This document shows, in pieces, positions 3,093-62,446 of a DNA stretch of 64,000 nt (the first letter of the stretch is position 1; every line of letters begins with the position of its first letter). Both the position numbers and the translations under genes were made by a program. This stretch comes from a virus, in IMG/VR virus record IMGVR_UViG_3300048836_000098, positions 1 through 64,000 of that record, one strand, 5' to 3'. The notes beneath the pieces are model-generated. The model searched no databases. It was not told where the DNA came from and saw nothing but the letters and a program-made list of their open reading frames with translations.

Positions 3093-3716
3093 ATGAAATC
3101 AATCAAAGCACGAATCACATTCACAGAAGAAGTTCTCGGAACATGCGCGGGTGATCCTAGAATCCATGAAGAGTTCATTGCATCAAAAGCCCCGAACGCT
3201 CTGAATATGGAAGAAGAAGTTGCCGCGCTCGGTGTAGATGAAGTTGTCAAGAACGGCATGACGGTATTCCCGCGAGACAATCAAGACCGACCGTTTCTCT
3301 ACGACTACCAGATCAAAGGTTTCTTTAAGGACGCATGTTCGATGTTGTCAAGATGCTCCAGCAAGGACGCGAACGGCAAAAAACAGGCGGTCAACGAATC
3401 GTCCAAGATCACGGCATTCAAAAAGGTGATCGACGGTATGATTTTCGTAACACCAAGACAGATTCCGTTCGTGTTCGATGGTGCTGTTGGGAACTGCCAG
3501 CGACCACTCAGAGCGCAGACGGCACAGGGTGAGCGAATCGCCCTTGCAAACAGCGAAACCATTCCTGCGGGCGCGTACATTGACGTTGAGATCGTTCTGT
3601 TGAATGAAGCGTATGAATCGGCTGTCATGGAATGGCTGGACTACGGCAAATGGCGCGGCATTGGTCAGTGGCGAAATTCCGGCAAGGGCGCGTTTACTTA
3701 CGAATTGCTGAAATAG
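3093..3716 (+). CDS. RAMP-superfamily-like (Cas7-like) phage protein, 207 aa
   Basis: GGAGGG lies upstream of ATG 3093. The product opens with a beta strand (KARITFTEEVLGT). Residues ~69-82 (LYDYQIKGFFKDAC) match the S-x-K-G-x-hh-R-x-A helix of Cas7/Csm3-type RAMP proteins. The C-terminus ends in a glycine-rich loop at 189-199 (GIGQWRNSGKG), as in RAMP RNA-binding proteins. A conserved-looking QRPLRAQTAQGE stretch lies at ~136-147. RAMP proteins bind or cut RNA; RNA binding here is inference from these motifs. The gene ends in TAG at the exact start of the GGCA-rich tract, so protein and tract share a transcript. No other Cas gene is present. Confidence 0.55.
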   Translation: MKSIKARITFTEEVLGTCAGDPRIHEEFIASKAPNALNMEEEVAALGVDEVVKNGMTVFPRDNQDRPFLYDYQIKGFFKDACSMLSRCSSKDANGKKQAVNESSKITAFKKVIDGMIFVTPRQIPFVFDGAVGNCQRPLRAQTAQGERIALANSETIPAGAYIDVEIVLLNEAYESAVMEWLDYGKWRGIGQWRNSGKGAFTYELLK

Positions 3717-4139
3717 TTGCGACGGCAAATCCTTGCATCGTGAGCAACAGCACAGCAAGGAACTGAATATCTCCGCAAAGGCATTTGAATAGCGATACAA
3801 GGCAACGGCACTGTACGGACGAGCAGGGACTGCACGGCAATGGAAGAGTTCGGAAGGGCAGAGTTAGCAAAGGCAACGCTTAGAATCGAGAGGCGATGGA
3901 GTAGCAAGCCGAAGAGAAGCGCAGCAAAGGCAAGGCGTTGAAACGGATAGCAAAGGCAAGGCACCGTCTAGCACAGCGAGAGCGAGGCATGGCGGAGCGT
4001 AGCAACAGCATGGCAATGATTGGAGAAGCGGAGTTCGCAACGGATTAGCCAAGCATTGAGTCGCAAAGCAACAGAGAGGCATAGACCAGAATTGAATCGC
4101 AACAGCATAGCTTGTCTAGGCATGCATAGCCATGGCACA
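3717..4139 (+). repeat. Purine-rich GGCA/GCA-dense irregular repeat tract, non-coding
   Basis: Begins at the stop codon of the RAMP-like gene and runs ~420 bases. GGCA occurs at 3724, 3780, 3801, 3807, 3836, 3857, 3872, 3929, 3955, 3960, 3986, 4012, 4078, 4119 and 4134, against fewer than two expected by chance. GCAAAGGCA occurs at 3775, 3867, 3924 and 3950. Clusters of GCRRR units five to six bases apart alternate with unique 8-20 base segments, without a fixed period, so this is not a canonical CRISPR array. No credible start codon with ribosome site is present. Open frames on the complementary strand follow from base composition. It is presumably transcribed as a 3' extension of the upstream gene. 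Confidence 0.7.
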
Positions 4140-4145
4140 GACCTC

Positions 4146-4174
4146 TTGACAACCTCGCGCACTTGCTATATTCT
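4146..4174 (+). promoter_or_regulatory. Promoter of the small RNA gene
   Basis: TTGACA (4146-4151) and TATTCT (4169-4174) are separated by 17 bases; an overlapping TATATT (4167-4172) gives 15. The predicted start of transcription, ~4181, coincides with the first base of the paired RNA element. It starts just after the GGCA tract ends. Confidence 0.65.
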
Positions 4175-4180
4175 TTTATT

Positions 4181-4285
4181 TGGGACGCAAACCATTCACG
4201 GTGGCGCGATCCAAGTGAATACGGCTCGTCCCCTCAAAGTCCGCAACGGTGTGCCGTGAACACACCCGAAGCGGATTTTCTTGTT
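4181..4285 (+). ncRNA. Small structured RNA: two nested stem-loops in tandem
   Basis: First element: GGGACG (4182-4187) pairs with CGTCCC (4227-4232) and encloses ATTCAC (4194-4199) paired with GTGAAT (4215-4220). Second element: TCCGC (4240-4244) pairs with GCGGA (4271-4275) and encloses GGTGTG (4248-4253) paired with CACACC (4261-4266) around a 7-base loop, followed by TTTTC. With the promoter at 4146-4174 this forms a complete ~100-base transcription unit. No ribosome site or frame fits. I recognise no Rfam family. Its position after the RAMP-like gene and tract suggests a functional link, which is inference. Confidence 0.65.
4240..4280 (+). terminator. Intrinsic terminator of the small RNA
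   Basis: The second nested stem-loop (five outer and six inner base pairs) is followed directly by ATTTTCTTG. It would end the small RNA and any read-through from the upstream tract, before the HTH gene with its own promoter. Confidence 0.6.
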
Positions 4286-4316
4286 GAGAAAAGTATATAT
4301 TATTTTGATTTTGCTA

Positions 4317-4345
4317 TTTACAAGCACTTCCAAGTATGTTATAGT
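4317..4345 (+). promoter_or_regulatory. Promoter of the HTH/antirepressor operon
   Basis: TTTACA (4317-4322), 17-base spacer, TATAGT (4340-4345), 18 bases before ATG 4363. A TATATATTATTTTG tract at ~4293-4306 just upstream resembles the AT-rich tract at the late minus-strand promoters and may be an operator. Confidence 0.6.
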
Positions 4346-4362: not shown

Positions 4363-4536
4363 ATGAAGATTCCGAAAGCGGCAATCGCATTAAATCGTAG
4401 TACAAAGACAATCCGCACTTGGATTAAGAGCGGTATTCTTCATGCTACAAAGTTGGGAAGAGATTGGGAAATCTCCGAAGAAGAAGTTGACCGGATTAAG
4501 CGCGACGGTCTGGAACTCAAACGGCAAGATGAATAA
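4363..4536 (+). CDS. Excisionase/MerR-like helix-turn-helix protein, 57 aa
   Basis: AGGAG lies 6 bases before ATG 4363. The pattern of a short winged helix-turn-helix is clear: AIALNRSTKTIRTWIKSGIL recognition region, then LGRDWEISEEEVDRI wing and helix. This is the fold of excisionases and DNA-binding helix_turn_helix_17 proteins. With its own promoter and the antirepressor next, it may control the lysis-lysogeny switch or act as excisionase. A second such protein is at 23963. Confidence 0.75.
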   Translation: MKIPKAAIALNRSTKTIRTWIKSGILHATKLGRDWEISEEEVDRIKRDGLELKRQDE

Positions 4537-4545
4537 GGAGATTAT

Positions 4546-5358
4546 ATGAATACTGATATTCAAATTTTTAACAACGAACAATTTGGGAACGTTCGGGTTA
4601 TTGATCTAGGCGGTGAACCGTGGTTTGTTGCCAAAGACGTTTGCGAGGCGTTCAATGACACAAACCACATCAGAAGCGTTGGCCGGATCGATGATTCCGA
4701 TAAATGCGTGATTCAGGTTATTGACAACCTCGGAAGAACACAGAGCGCAACAGCGGTAAATGAGTCTGGATTATACTTGCTATTGTTCGGAATGCAACCG
4801 CAAAAGGCAAACAATAGTGGGGTGTCCGATGCGTACCCCATCGAGGTTCAGAAAAGAATCGATAGGTTGCGAGATTTTAAGCGGTGGATTACTCACGATG
4901 TTCTTCCATCTATTCGCAAGCACGGCATGTACGCAAAGGACGAACTACTCGACAATCCCGACCTGCTGATTGAGGTTGCAACCAAGCTAAAGCAGGAACG
5001 CGACGCTAGACTTTCCCTCGAAGCAGAGAACGCCGCTATGCTTCCAAAGGCAGATTTCTACGACGCGGTAATCGAAAGTTCCGACACCATCGAAATGGCA
5101 ACCGTCGCAAAGATTCTGAATGTTGGGATCGGTCGCAATAGACTGTTTGAAATTCTACGTGAACAAAAGATTCTTAGGGATGATAACACCCCATTGCAGA
5201 ATTACGTCGATCTTGGTTGGTTCAAGTGCGTCGAGAGCAAATACACTAAACCAGACGGCGGAACATTCATCAACGTCAAGACCGTCGTTTATCAAAAAGG
5301 TATCGATGGAATATTAAAGTTGCTTAAAGATAAATATAATTTGAAACCGATTGTTTGA
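4546..5358 (+). CDS. Phage antirepressor, Bro-N plus KilAC domains, 270 aa
   Basis: AAGGAG lies upstream of ATG 4546. Residues ~5-115 are a Bro-N domain (WFVAKDVCEAF, later NESGLYLLLFG and RDFKRWITHDVLPSIRKHG). Residues ~165-270 are a KilAC/ANT domain (AKILNVGIGRNRLFEILREQKIL, then Y-x-K-P-D-G). Such proteins bind DNA or repressor to induce lytic growth. Lies in an operon with the HTH gene before it. The next gene is four bases away. Confidence 0.9.
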   Translation: MNTDIQIFNNEQFGNVRVIDLGGEPWFVAKDVCEAFNDTNHIRSVGRIDDSDKCVIQVIDNLGRTQSATAVNESGLYLLLFGMQPQKANNSGVSDAYPIEVQKRIDRLRDFKRWITHDVLPSIRKHGMYAKDELLDNPDLLIEVATKLKQERDARLSLEAENAAMLPKADFYDAVIESSDTIEMATVAKILNVGIGRNRLFEILREQKILRDDNTPLQNYVDLGWFKCVESKYTKPDGGTFINVKTVVYQKGIDGILKLLKDKYNLKPIV

Positions 5359-12825: not shown

Positions 12826-13482
12826 ATGGCAAAACAGATAGCGTACAACATGGACTGCATGGAAGCCATGCGGGAGATGCCGGATAAAGCATTCGAGCTG
12901 GCGATTGTTGACCCGCCGTATGGGATAGAGCGATTTAAGCGCGGTGGCAGCGTGGTTAACCGGTACGGTGACGAAAATCGACAATGGAACAACATAAAGC
13001 CCGCCTCTGAATACTTTGAAGAACTTTTTCGGGTAAGCAAAAGCCAAATAATTTGGGGAGCAAACAACTTTAGCTTGCCGCCTTCTGAATACTTCATAAT
13101 TTGGGACAAGGTTAATCCGTTTGAATTTAGCTTTGCGATGTGTGAACAGGCGTGGACGAACATCAAAAAGCCTGCAAAGATTTTTACATATAATTCGCGG
13201 AGCGAAAGCGCAAGCCGTATTCATCCAACACAAAAACCCGTCAAGCTCTATGAGTGGCTTTTAACCAACTACGCCAAACAAGGCGACAAGATACTCGACA
13301 CGCATTTAGGTTCAGGCTCGTCACGCATAGCCGCATATAACCTCGGTTTTGACTTTGTGGGGTACGAGATAGATACAGACTATTTCAATGCACAGGAAGA
13401 GCGATTCCAGAAGCACACGGCGCAGATACGGTTGTTTGACCTTGCGCCAAAGCAAGAGATAGAACAACTAAAAATAATCTAA
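12826..13482 (+). CDS. DNA methyltransferase (N6-adenine or N4-cytosine, DPPY type), 218 aa
   Basis: GGAGG precedes ATG 12826. Motif IV is DPPYG at residues ~29-33 and the SAM-binding motif (LDTHLGSGSSRIAA) is near 158, with RIHPTQKPVKLYEWLL between. This order is that of beta-class methyltransferases. No restriction partner is nearby, so the likely role is self-protection against host restriction. First member of the 12826-16701 anti-restriction island. Confidence 0.9.
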   Translation: MAKQIAYNMDCMEAMREMPDKAFELAIVDPPYGIERFKRGGSVVNRYGDENRQWNNIKPASEYFEELFRVSKSQIIWGANNFSLPPSEYFIIWDKVNPFEFSFAMCEQAWTNIKKPAKIFTYNSRSESASRIHPTQKPVKLYEWLLTNYAKQGDKILDTHLGSGSSRIAAYNLGFDFVGYEIDTDYFNAQEERFQKHTAQIRLFDLAPKQEIEQLKII

Positions 13483-13541
13483 AAGTCATAGGCAGCGCTT
13501 TAATTGCCGGCAGCCATTCTGACGAGAAAGGACTATGACGA

Positions 13542-14306
13542 ATGATTGAGCTAAACAGGATTTACAATGAGGATTGCTTAGAGGGGATGAAGCAAATACC
13601 GGATAAAAGTGTGGATATGATATTGTGTGATTTGCCATATGGAACAACGGCTTGTAAGTGGGATAGCGTGATACCGTTTGAGCCGTTGTGGGAACAGTAC
13701 AATAGGATTATCAAAGACAATGGGGCTATAGTTTTATTTGCAAGACAACCTTTTATGAGTGACTTAGTGTGTAGCAATAAAAAGCTTTTTAGATATGAAA
13801 TAATATGGGATAAAAAAACAAGTACAGATTTTGCTCAAGCTAATAATAAACCAATTACAGTACATGAGAATATTGCAGTTTTCTATAAAAAGAAACCAAA
13901 CTACCATAGAATAGACGATGAAGGATTTAAACCATACACAGACAAAAGAACTGTCAGACAAAGTAGTGAACTAGGAGCAAAAGGATGTGTAGTAAGAAAA
14001 CCTTTTGAGAACAAAACGACAAGAACACCTACGACAATCAGACAGCATTTTACTGATAATCGCAAAGGAAAGGGTAGTAGCTTGCATCCTACACAGAAGC
14101 CAGTAAGTTTGTGTGAATGGTTAATAAAAGCATATTCAGATGAAAACGATATAGTACTTGACAACTGCATGGGTTCCGGCACCACCGCAATCGCCTGTAT
14201 CAACACAGGGCGCAACTTCATAGGCTTTGAGTTGGACAAGCAGTACTGCGACATAGCCAACGAGCGCATACGGAAAGCCCTTGCCGAAAAGGAGGTGGGC
14301 GAGTGA
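13542..14306 (+). CDS. DNA methyltransferase (DLPY type), 254 aa, mosaic composition
   Basis: ATG 13542 has AAAGGA upstream. Motif IV is DLPYG near residue 30, followed by CKWDSVIPFEPLWEQY. HPTQKPVSLCEWLI and the SAM site (LDNCMGSGTTAIA) follow near 190-215. It is closely related in layout to the minus-strand methyltransferase at 52527-53261. The central part, ~13760-14160, is conspicuously AT-rich while the last 150 bases are GC-rich like neighbours, so the gene looks recombined. The central part should hold the target-recognition region. Confidence 0.9.
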   Translation: MIELNRIYNEDCLEGMKQIPDKSVDMILCDLPYGTTACKWDSVIPFEPLWEQYNRIIKDNGAIVLFARQPFMSDLVCSNKKLFRYEIIWDKKTSTDFAQANNKPITVHENIAVFYKKKPNYHRIDDEGFKPYTDKRTVRQSSELGAKGCVVRKPFENKTTRTPTTIRQHFTDNRKGKGSSLHPTQKPVSLCEWLIKAYSDENDIVLDNCMGSGTTAIACINTGRNFIGFELDKQYCDIANERIRKALAEKEVGE

Positions 14307-26848: not shown

Positions 26849-27217
26849 ATGAGATACTTGGACTTGCCAACGAGGGATGTTGTTACAAAGCTATCCTCTT
26901 ACGCATTCGCGAGATCGGGTGTAGACGCTTCTGTTTTTAAGTTCTACACAGGAACAGAGCAAGTATATCAATTCGTCACGAATCAGATTGCAAAGGCAAG
27001 GGAACAAAACGCAGATAACGAGAAATTCAGAAACGCGGCTTTAGAAATTCTACAAAAAGAAATCGAGTTCGACTTACCGAAGCTCGATATTTGCGAAGAT
27101 GATTTTGTTGACGAGAATTGCAGACGGTCTGACGATAAGGCGTTCTGGTTGAGCGCGATTGAGCGGCTCGCAATCTTGAACCTCGTAAAACTATCTGCCG
27201 AGATAATTGATGGTTGA
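26849..27217 (+). CDS. Hypothetical protein, last plus-strand gene, 122 aa
   Basis: TTAGGGGG precedes ATG 26849. It is a helical protein with no recognised motif. Its last 27 bases overlap, in antisense, the end of the tail-tip gene on the other strand; no terminator hairpin is visible between the two converging arms. Confidence 0.6.
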   Translation: MRYLDLPTRDVVTKLSSYAFARSGVDASVFKFYTGTEQVYQFVTNQIAKAREQNADNEKFRNAALEILQKEIEFDLPKLDICEDDFVDENCRRSDDKAFWLSAIERLAILNLVKLSAEIIDG

Positions 27218-30200
27218 GAAGTCTCCGCTACGTATATAAGTCCTTTGAATATTGCTGATCGCCTTCGTAGTGACTTGTTGGGTAGAGAAGTTGACCCCTG
27301 TTACCACGCTAAAACTTGTCGTTCCGCTGGAAAGCAAATAGGCTGTATTTTCATCCAAAGAGGTGCAGACTGAACGAGAACGCCACGAAGCCGAATACGG
27401 TTGCACGATAAATGAGTTTTGAACAATCAATTCCCTGACATACAGAACATTTGCTTGCGCAGTAGACGCATTAAGCCAACCGCTGATATAGGTTCCGATC
27501 GCATCGATCTTTACATAGTCAGCCTTAATCGAAGCGACAGATGCCGCCGCCGCGTTTGCCGTAACTGTAACAGAAGCGACTCTTCCGTCAACCTCGGCAA
27601 GCAACGTAGCGGAAGCAAAGTTGGCGTAAGCCTCTGCTCTTAATCCAGCCACACTAGACGAGACTAACGTACCAGTCTCGTCTTTTGTGTAATATCCCGC
27701 GAGAAGCGATAGCCTAGCGAAGTTTGCGTTTGTCCATGCTTCAAGACCCGCTCTAGCGGTAGATATTTTTCCATCGAGGTCTACGTAGTTGTGTTCAACG
27801 ATTGCGGTTAAGTTCGCTTCTTGCTCGTTCAGATCAACATAAACTTGTCCGATAGACTGGCGAGTTTCCCCTGCAAATGTTCTTAAATATTCCGCTTCAA
27901 ATCCAATAGTAGCGCGAACGTCATCAAATTCTTGAAAGAACCTTGCGTTAGAGATAATCTGTTCTTCCAAAGCGTCAGCAAGCGTACCACCGCCACCGCC
28001 GCCGCCACCTCCACGACGACCAGAGCTAGAGCCAGAACCAACGGAAATATCATCCGCACTGATTCTGCCTTTCGCATCGAACGCTGGCATTTCATCGGTT
28101 TTCTTGTAGATTAGCTTAAATATGTCGCGCACGTTGGCGTGAATATCACCGACCTCTAATGTTGTGTGGTTCAGCGGATTCCAAACGTCATACTCCCAAT
28201 TCACGATGCGTAGCAGTTCGCTTGTTTCTTCGCCTTTTTCGGAATCGACGTAGTATGCTTTTACAACAGAGTTCAGATCGAATACGTCAAACTCATAGCC
28301 GCCAATCTGTCTGCGATCAACAACTTTGTTCTCATATTTGACCGTCTTGCGCGGACGGCAGACCTTGCTTACTTCGCGTCTAGCCCAATTAAGAAGCTGT
28401 AGCATCCCGCCATCATCGAGAGTATCATATATGTTCGGTTGTTCTGCGTAGCCCTCATAAATCGTGTCAGTGTACGAGAAATCATCAACGTAGCGTTTGC
28501 CGCCGTTGACAAGAGAGATATTCAACTTATCTGCGCCTAAAGGATATAGCCTAGTAATCATATCTGCATTCCATATAACGCTAGGCATGCTCGTAATATT
28601 CTTGCCGCGCTTAATCGTAAATCCGTTCCACGTATTGAAGTCAGAACCTTCTTTGTCCTCGTCTCGATAGTGGATAACCTTGTGGAGACTGTCGAAAACT
28701 ATCACGCCGCCGTACAGTTCTTGGATTGATTCGATGTTCGAGAAAACATCCTTGGCATCCGTTTCAGCGTTAAATACACCCATCTCGTTTCCACTTACAA
28801 AGTGCGCAGTAGCACCCGCCGAGATCGACCCGCCGAGATTCAGAATCGTGATATCAAGGTTGCCATCACCATTTGTAGCGATACCGACAATACGTGCGCT
28901 CACGGGCGCGTCAGACCATCCAGAAGCGTCGTAGATAGAAATACTATAGCCTTGCTCCCAAGTGCTCGCGTAGGCGAAGCCAGCGTCCGTAGAAGGCACT
29001 GTGAACTTAGTTTCCAACGCCGCGCCGGAATTGCTGAACGCAACAACGCAATCATTCGAGATCGCTCCGCCGCTATTTGCGAACTTGACCGTGATCCTGC
29101 TGTCAGTCGCGTTGAAATACGAAACGGCGATAGAATCGGGAGCGTTCTCCCATTGCGGAACAGAATCGAGCGTAGAAATGTCAGCAATATAAAGCGTGTT
29201 ACCGACAGCCCAATTCAGAGCGCGTCTAAAAGAACTATCCGTATTCTGCGCGAGGTCAAACACCCAACTGTCGCTAGAAGCCTTATACGTGCCGTAGAGA
29301 GCAGTGAAGTCACGAACAGCCGTTGCACAGACAGCATCGACTTGCGACGTATTGAAATCGGCGTGAATCATGTCGCACGTTCCAAGCATCCAACCAGTAT
29401 CGCGAATCACAGACCACAAAGCGTAACCAGCAGAGCCACGCGGCATTAGAACGTCGCGCTCGTCCATCACAACGGAATCTTCGTACTGAACGCTGTTGAT
29501 TGATAGCTTATATTTATTGTTCGACTTCGGGAGAATCATCACAGTGTGATCATCGATAGATTCAAGACCCGCACCGAACAGAGCGGTTGCGCCAGAAGCG
29601 ATAGTCCCGCCGTAGTTATAGAATGTGATTATAATCGAATCTTCTGTCTTGGTGATCGAAACTGGATTGATATATTTCACCGCGCTTAACCACGTATCAG
29701 ACGGTTCAAGGATATAGATCGTATCGGTAACGTCCCACAACAGAGCCTTTGCAAAGTTCTCGTCAGAGGAAGCGATAACAACCGTAGCAAGCACTGCAAC
29801 CTTATTCGTTCTGTCATACTCCGCGCATTCAGTCGTAGCCGTTGCCTTGCTCTTGCTGTAGGTCATTACGTTATGCGCTTGGACGTATTTTTTTTTGAGC
29901 GTGTATTGTTCCTCTACAAGCGTTACAGTGGCGATACGAGCATCTTCGCCTTCAACGCCATAAACGATAGCATCGTCAGTCAGAGCCGTATAGACGCGAC
30001 CATTAACGTGATAGCGATTCTCTGGATTCTTAATCAGTTGGAACTTTTCGGAAGAAACGAGCATCTTAAACGTGAACGAGCTTTCGCCATTCTGCACCAG
30101 CTTCACGGTCGGCTCAACCATTATCTCACGACGTTCATCATCCGAAACAACCGCCGTAGGATGTTTAGGCGTGGGAATCGGATTGCCAAAGGAAGCGATT

Positions 30201-52526: not shown

Positions 52527-53261
52527 TTATATATAATCTTGAACATTATCCGCTAATCGCTTATTGATAATATCTACGTACTTCGCTTCCTTCTCGATCA
52601 GAATGTAGCTCCGCTTAGTGTTCTGGCAAGCAACTCCCGTTGTTCCCGAACCCGCACAGTTATCTAAAACCGTATCTCCTTCGTTCGTGTAAGTCTTGAT
52701 AAGATACTCACATAAGGATACTGGCTTTTGGGTTGGGTGCAAAGAGCCGCGACGCACCTTGTCGAACGATAGTAACGTTGTTGGATATTTCTCTGTGTAC
52801 GTCTTTTGATTTAGCTTAGAAAGTCCAACTGTCCCTCCGCTCATTGACTGCGCCATTCCACCGCTTTTTATCGGAACGTCACGCGGTTGCATAATTGGGT
52901 GGTAAAAAGAATTACCGCTAATAAATACCGATATGCTTTCCGTTTGACGCATTGGTTGAATCCTTGCGTTGCACATTCCGCTCGGTATTTTCTTATCCCA
53001 TATCCAATCGTATTTGTAATCCTGCAAATTACTCAATCTCAACTTGCTTGAAAACGGTTCTTGTCCAAATAAAACTATCGCGCAGTTGTCCTTGATAATC
53101 CGCTTGTACTGTTCCCACAACGGATCAAACGGAATTATAACATCCCACTTGCAAGATAGAGAACCATACGGCAAGTCACACAAGATCATATCTACGCTCT
53201 TGTCGGGAATATCGCGCATTACTTCTAGGCAATCTCCGAGAATTACTACGTTTTTATCCAT
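52527..53261 (-). CDS. DNA methyltransferase (DLPY type), 244 aa
   Basis: ATG 53261. Motif IV is DLPYG near residue 30 with CKWDVIIPFDPLWEQY. RRGSLHPTQKPVSLCEYLI and the SAM site LDNCAGSGTTGVACQ follow. It is highly similar in layout to 13542-14306 but differs through the central target-recognition part. It sits between terminase and portal, a common place for a morphogenesis-linked methyltransferase in gut siphophages. Confidence 0.9.
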   Translation of the reverse strand: MDKNVVILGDCLEVMRDIPDKSVDMILCDLPYGSLSCKWDVIIPFDPLWEQYKRIIKDNCAIVLFGQEPFSSKLRLSNLQDYKYDWIWDKKIPSGMCNARIQPMRQTESISVFISGNSFYHPIMQPRDVPIKSGGMAQSMSGGTVGLSKLNQKTYTEKYPTTLLSFDKVRRGSLHPTQKPVSLCEYLIKTYTNEGDTVLDNCAGSGTTGVACQNTKRSYILIEKEAKYVDIINKRLADNVQDYI

Positions 53262-61769: not shown

Positions 61770-61845
61770 TGGCGAATGATCTTGGACTTGAACCAAGACG
61801 CTTCCGATTAACAGCCGGACGCTCTTCCGATTGAGCTAATCATTC
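61770..61845 (-). tRNA. tRNA-Asn (GUU)
   Basis: Acceptor GAATGAT / ATCATTC with encoded G-CCA. D-arm TAGCTCAATCGGAAGAGC. The anticodon stem TCCGG / TCGGA encloses loop CTGTTAA (anticodon GTT). Canonical T-arm CTTGG-TTCAAGT-CCAAG. A complete, ordinary 76-base cloverleaf. Confidence 0.95.
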
Positions 61846-61980
61846 ACGTAGCTGAATGTTATCGAGTGCTAGTCATCACAGCCATTATTGACTCTATTAC
61901 ACCGTTCGATTGGCGGGGCTTCGTTCAGGACTTCCTAAAACCCATTCGAATATTCGGATTTCTCCGTGTCCACGCAGAAT

Positions 61981-62055
61981 TGGCAGCGGAAGTAGGTGTT
62001 GCTCCCACTCATAGACGGTTCAAAGCCGTCCTCGTTCCTGTTTCGACATTCCGCT
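61981..62055 (-). tRNA. tRNA-Gln (UUG), non-canonical T-loop
   Basis: Acceptor AGCGGAA / TTCCGCT then G-CCA. D-arm TCG-AAACAGGAA-CGA. The anticodon stem GACGG / CCGTC encloses loop CTTTGAA (anticodon TTG). The T-stem GTGGG / CCTAC pairs, but its loop is AGCAACA, which keeps C56 and lacks the usual T54-T55. Length 75 bases. Confidence 0.85.
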
Positions 62056-62086
62056 TTGCTTTCGCGGGAACATCGGACTTACACTA

Positions 62087-62329
62087 CTACTTTGCGTCCA
62101 CAACGCATTTCATAACGCCGATGCTTAATCCCGCTAAGTTCATTTCCGAGATCGGGGTCTTACCGCTCGGAACGCCTCCTTGCCATTCGGCTAAATCGTC
62201 CACGGCGGGTACGGAGCACCGTGTTAGTCTGAATTTAATGTCTACAGATCGACCTCCCAAGAAACCAGTGCTATTCGAGGCGGCTAACTCCAGATCCGTC
62301 ATCGTCGCGCTTTCGTAGCCATCTTCCAC
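62087..62329 (-). CDS. Hypothetical protein within the tRNA island, 80 aa
   Basis: GTG 62329 has GGAGGG six bases upstream; a later ATG at 62302 is possible. Acidic and Gly-rich with two cysteines, no family recognised. It lies between tRNA-Gly and tRNA-Gln in the same transcript. Real translation is supported mainly by the ribosome site. Confidence 0.45.
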   Translation of the reverse strand: MEDGYESATMTDLELAASNSTGFLGGRSVDIKFRLTRCSVPAVDDLAEWQGGVPSGKTPISEMNLAGLSIGVMKCVVDAK

Positions 62330-62372
62330 GCGCTACCCTCCGGCTATTACACTGTTGATCTGTTTCTCGGTG

Positions 62373-62446
62373 TGGAGCGGATATTCGGTAACGATCCGAA
62401 CCTAACAGTTTGGAAAACTGCTGTGCTTCCAATACACCATATCCAC
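62373..62446 (-). tRNA. tRNA-Gly (UCC), unusual T-loop
   Basis: Acceptor GTGGATA / TATCCGC (one G-T pair) then T-CCA. D-arm GTGT-ATTGGAA-GCAC. The anticodon stem GCAGT / ACTGT encloses loop TTTCCAA (anticodon TCC). The T-stem TTCGG / CCGAA holds loop ATCGTTA, which lacks T54 and A58. Its 5' end lies 19 bases downstream of the -10 at 62465-62470. Confidence 0.9.

Follow-up and report, generated by a model that had tools for sequence, protein, structure and literature searches.

The region described here lies near the start of a 64,000-nucleotide stretch of viral DNA (positions 1 to 64,000 of IMG/VR record IMGVR_UViG_3300048836_000098), the whole of which is called the window below. On one strand it carries a VIPR-like locus, a candidate small RNA unit and an operon encoding an excisionase-type HTH protein and an antirepressor (HTH-ant), with the following features:

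3093 to 3716, + strand: gene for a Vipr-like RAMP protein of 207 aa (AlphaFold model matches; profile comparison)
3717 to 4145, + strand: vrRNA-like tract of about 430 bases with RGC-NN pentamer periodicity (lag-5 identity)
4146 to 4174, + strand: predicted promoter P1, TTGACA-17 nt-TATTCT (sequence; consensus scan, 10/12 matches)
4182 to 4285, + strand: candidate orphan small RNA of about 100 nt (unit from P1 to terminator)
4182 to 4232, + strand: hairpin 1, GGGACG/CGUCCC around AUUCAC/GUGAAU, beginning at the predicted +1 (fold, z -1.7 alone)
4236 to 4285, + strand: hairpin 2 and U-tract, a predicted intrinsic terminator, AAAGUCCGC...GCGGAUUUUCUUGUU (fold; terminator scan)
4317 to 4345, + strand: predicted promoter P2 of the HTH-ant operon, TTTACA-17-TATAGT, with TG before the -10 box (consensus scan)
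4363 to 4536, + strand: excisionase-type HTH_17 protein (Pfam HTH_17, NCBIfam TIGR01764)
4546 to 5358, + strand: antirepressor, Bro-N + KilAC (Pfam, PHROG 130)

Elsewhere in the window, two DNA methylase-like genes stand in a row at 12826-14306, and a diverged copy of the second (13542-14306) lies at 52527-53261, with 79.9% identity over 134 nt. Near 27-28 kb (window 27000-29000) the sign of the GC skew changes; the genes looked at are on the + strand before this change and, at 50-64 kb, on the - strand, and genes for tRNA-Asn and tRNA-Gly occur at 61770-62446 on the - strand.

In VIPR systems, phage RAMP proteins are accompanied by guide RNAs composed of GGY/NN or related pentamers (PMC13142463). 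The 207-aa protein of the window has no match in Pfam, PHROG or NCBIfam; its AlphaFold model (pLDDT 84.7) matches Cas7 of a type VII CRISPR system (8z4j_J, E 1.2e-8) as well as Csm chains, and these are its best PDB matches. The motif GxGQWRNSGKG is conserved near the C-terminus and, judged from the model and this motif, the protein has the RRM core and G-rich loop of a RAMP protein. We counted 53 viral and 16 genomic loci that encode it, the latter mostly labelled Oscillospiraceae or other Clostridia. Comparison by hhalign of the window protein family with the protein inferred to be the Vipr of phage SUSP1, whose gene was picked by its flanking YNNGG arrays and not via an accession in PMC13142463, gave E 6.5e-5 with a probability of 64%, which is suggestive of Vipr homology but is not proof. 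In SUSP1 (KT454805, L153, 27500-29510) YNNGG arrays flank ALH47069.1 (195 aa) and ALH47068.1 (147 aa), both annotated as hypothetical; their genes are probably vipr and vap as described in PMC13142463. Beside the RAMP gene of the window, as in VIPR, is a pentamer tract, with a lag-5 identity of 0.40 versus 0.27 in shuffles (z 6.0), and the 5-base period is present in all 12 relatives examined. Loci of this kind, gene followed by tract, recur in dozens of phages and prophages. The tract has an additional 21/26/31/36-nt periodicity and is less regular than in most relatives, with more GC-to-GC spacings of 10-20, as if its guide code were partly worn or belonged to another subtype. Given the Cas7-like nature of its RAMP protein and the 5-base period of its tract, 3093-4145 is a real RAMP locus, as the preliminary description had called it, and resembles the VIPR systems of 2026. 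This CRISPR-like locus is more remarkable than the RNA beside it, and such systems have already been described in a 2026 preprint.

Immediately past the tract, P1 has a TTGACA box at 4146-4151 and a TATTCT box at 4169-4174, and its 10 of 12 consensus matches and 17-nt spacer uphold the promoter that had been proposed here. On this consensus match, transcription is predicted to begin at about 4182, 7 nt past the -10 box; the earlier choice of the first base of GGGACG stands, while its numbering as 4181 was one base early. The four perfect helices of 5-6 pairs that had been reported are likewise present, namely GGGACG/CGTCCC (6 pairs) and ATTCAC/GTGAAT (6) in hairpin 1, and TCCGC/GCGGA (5, extended by AAAG/UUUU) and GGTGTG/CACACC (6) in hairpin 2. 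Since the nested stem-loop of hairpin 2 (4236-4279) continues into UUUUCUUGUU, we read it as an intrinsic terminator; an AT-rich stretch at 4288-4313 lies downstream of the U-tract. The whole RNA (4181-4285) folds at -38.2 kcal/mol (z -2.5), with 4 of 200 shuffles equally good. Hairpin 2 (4234-4285) is strong, its z of -4.0 being equalled by none of 200 shuffles, and hairpin 1 by itself is weak, with a z of -1.7 that chance could reach, although its fold is retained at all transcript lengths tested. The reverse strand of the hairpin region folds equally well. No strong antiterminator to hairpin 2 was found, the fold with its 3' arm blocked reaching -28.0 kcal/mol versus -39.9. Reading frames that start within the RNA are 2-39 aa long, have GTG or TTG as first codon and lack a good ribosome-binding site; with such short frames only, the unit appears to be non-coding, as expected of an intergenic sRNA gene, which would also have its own promoter (here P1, on consensus match only) and an intrinsic terminator (here hairpin 2 with its T-rich tail). 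With a good bacterial promoter ahead of two hairpins and a signal to stop transcription, the region probably makes an RNA of about 100 bases, and a discrete small RNA gene, independently initiated and terminated, is retained as the best reading of this sequence.

We asked how often such an arrangement would arise by chance, defining a unit as a promoter with at least 10/12 matches and, 40-200 nt downstream, a terminator made of a hairpin plus T-tract. The + strand of the 64-kb window holds a single unit, 4146-4285, the - strand also has one, which looks like coding sequence, and among 20 shuffled windows a unit turned up in 1; paired nested stem-loops at most 15 nt apart occur on the + strand only at 4182-4279, with 0.13 expected per 64 kb (200 shuffles), and all these figures somewhat overstate the case, as the rarity tests were devised after the site was seen. 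Folding energy alone leaves 4182-4285 unexceptional across the window, with the 105-nt sampled segment nearest the RNA (it starts 4 nt inside hairpin 1) ranking about 450th of 4260. Because folding energy alone is not distinctive, the case for the RNA depends on promoter, terminator and a hairpin at +1 occurring together. Of these the terminator has the best support, P1 comes next and hairpin 1 last.

Relatives of the RNA were sought in several ways. Rfam gave no relevant match at the gathering score or with E up to 10, and no hammerhead. Scanning 2.9 million viral contigs for exact patterns, once with the hairpin 1 loop and once with the promoter plus 5' end, returned only IMGVR_UViG_3300048590_000078, which is identical to the window across 13,903 bases and holds the sole other copy of the RNA. 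A covariance model (R1), weak in that it was built from the single RNA sequence so that distant relatives could escape it, found no credible match in related RAMP loci, in 47 whole records or in 391 genomes of one class, the genome searches being without a positive control. Its matches in L085 (E 1.7) and at SUSP1 25645 (E 0.064, inside coding sequence) were judged to be chance. Searches by blastn against phages and plasmids gave chance matches only, and inspection of the regions upstream of related antirepressors revealed no counterpart. Two sequences from sample 3300013137, L112 with an 84% antirepressor relative and L150 with an 83% terminase relative, are possibly one related phage; L112 is cut off inside ant, just short of where the RNA would lie. 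With no diverged homologue found in these searches, the RNA is left without covariation and without a sign of selection.

Pairing of the RNA with the adjacent operon was compared with shuffled RNAs. The duplex with the ant start region has an energy of -20.2 kcal/mol, a value that 8.5% of shuffled RNAs equal or better, and 90% do so for the start region of HTH. Pairing at the start regions of these two genes and 17 others is at shuffle level; the best, at g1927, is matched by 3% of shuffles, nothing unusual among 19 tests. Across the window, RNA-RNA pairing gave no target above shuffle level. If G-U pairs are allowed, 12 nt of the U-rich tail are able to pair with the ribosome-binding site of ant, and equally long tail pairings occur at other start sites, for example int and g130. 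Two known small phage RNAs offer a comparison (PMC12197685). The c4 antisense RNA of phages P1/P7 (77 nt) is structured and acts on an antirepressor gene, and as in its setting an ant gene is close by here; unlike c4, our RNA lacks significant pairing at the ant or HTH start sites, has no Rfam match, and has its own terminator followed by a second promoter. The sar RNA of phage P22 (68/69 nt) also has ant close by and pairs with ant mRNA, whereas the RNA here is on the same strand as ant, upstream of it, with pairing at shuffle level. No Rfam family of c4/sar-type antisense RNA matches 4182-4285.

Could the RNA nevertheless work with one of its neighbours? It might be part of the VIPR-like system, as a vrRNA tail, a processing element or a partner RNA, for it starts just 36 nt beyond the end of the pentamer tract, the vrRNAs of SUSP1 terminate in a structured tail (PMC13142463), and it is like a VIPR vrRNA (about 100 nt; PMC13142463) in its size and in adjoining a Vipr-like gene and a pentamer tract. 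Unlike a vrRNA, it has no RGC-NN/GGY-NN repeats, has its own promoter, which stands between it and the tract, and is missing from the relatives' loci. It lacks tandem pentamers of the GGY/NN or related kind, its lag-5 identity of 0.32 is not significant (62 of 1000 shuffles are as high), and neither a hammerhead nor another Rfam family matches it. No match to it occurs in the RAMP loci of relatives, so it does not recur with the vipr gene as a vrRNA would, and in relatives such as L003, L009, L010 and L017 the next gene begins within a few tens of bases after the tract, so that a 100-nt RNA would not fit. A scan of 64 loci for a promoter-terminator unit after the RAMP gene returned only the identical copy and L053, where the candidate is coding sequence; similarity between the RNA and the tract was also considered and dropped, shared 8-mers being at chance level. 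Because no examined relative of the locus has a comparable RNA, it is not a conserved VIPR part and probably does not belong to the VIPR-like system; membership is extremely improbable, and a VIPR accessory specific to this phage lineage, for instance one acting in trans as a structural partner or as an antagonist of the guide RNA, is the least credible possibility that we considered. Alternatively, the RNA may be the leader of the HTH-ant operon, with P1 transcripts attenuated at hairpin 2 or with the released RNA silencing ant in the manner of c4. It lies directly upstream of HTH-ant on the same strand and its tail can reach the ant ribosome-binding site as described above, but P2, the operon's own promoter, lies past the terminator, 8.5% of shuffles equal the ant duplex, the tail pairs just as far at int and g130, and there is no Rfam match. 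With no competing fold found, attenuation is unlikely, and we regard a leader as improbable. The two roles suggested in the preliminary description are not supported: a partner of the RAMP locus, since other RAMP loci contain neither relatives nor comparable units and the RNA lacks a 5-nt periodicity, and a regulator of the antirepressor operon, since its pairing is matched by shuffles. The "lysogeny switch" named there is also a loose term: an excisionase-like HTH protein and an Ant protein are encoded, but no CI-type repressor was found among the genes scanned.

The reading that we favor, with restrained confidence, is a self-contained orphan phage unit of the sRNA type whose terminator would also insulate the VIPR-like transcript from the HTH-ant operon. 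RNA polymerase would start from P1 at about 4182 and make an RNA of about 100 nt whose 5' end is closed immediately by hairpin 1, and transcription would stop at about 4285 at hairpin 2 and UUUUCUUGUU. The same terminator would halt transcripts from the upstream vipr-like operon and so insulate them from HTH-ant, which P2 would serve. We infer an RNA that is both made and stable and that may act in phage-specific regulation, pairing in trans with other RNAs by way of its loops, its linker or its U-rich tail. This is consistent with a 10/12 promoter of 17-nt spacing that ends 7 nt before hairpin 1, with a separate P2 downstream, with hairpin 2 and its T-tract, and with the rarity in shuffles of both the unit and its tandem nested hairpins; the lack of a diverged homologue, the z of hairpin 1 and the lack of a pairing target above shuffles speak against it. 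A rival reading is a terminator that is the only functional element, ending the transcript of the upstream vipr-like operon beside an incidental P1 and hairpin 1. Most of the structural signal is in hairpin 2 (z -4.0 versus -1.7), the recognised upstream genes are on the same strand, and no other terminator was found there before 4275. What makes this unlikely is that a 10/12 promoter 7 nt before a hairpin is not readily expected by chance, shuffles holding 2-9 such promoters per 64 kb. The equal folding of the reverse strand, the AT-rich stretch downstream and the lack of known conservation could instead point to a DNA element (an operator cluster or origin, together with 4288-4313) or to a chance arrangement. 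This is very improbable given that the T-tract is where an RNA terminator needs it, on the + strand side, that the skew turning point lies elsewhere, near 27-28 kb, and that the combination is rare in shuffles.

As a candidate orphan phage small RNA, the unit is well formed but ordinary, and its proposed partnerships are unsupported. It is of the same general kind as svsR, a prophage-encoded sRNA of E. coli NC101 (PMC12803456); the host group is different, and we claim no link in sequence. The nearest protein relatives of the present phage are in gut Clostridia. If the transcript exists, it would be one more orphan phage small RNA, and it should not be mistaken for a VIPR guide. In practice the RNA is mainly useful for marking where the VIPR-like operon ends, with the pentamer tract finishing near 4145 and any transcripts that continue past it probably terminating at about 4285.
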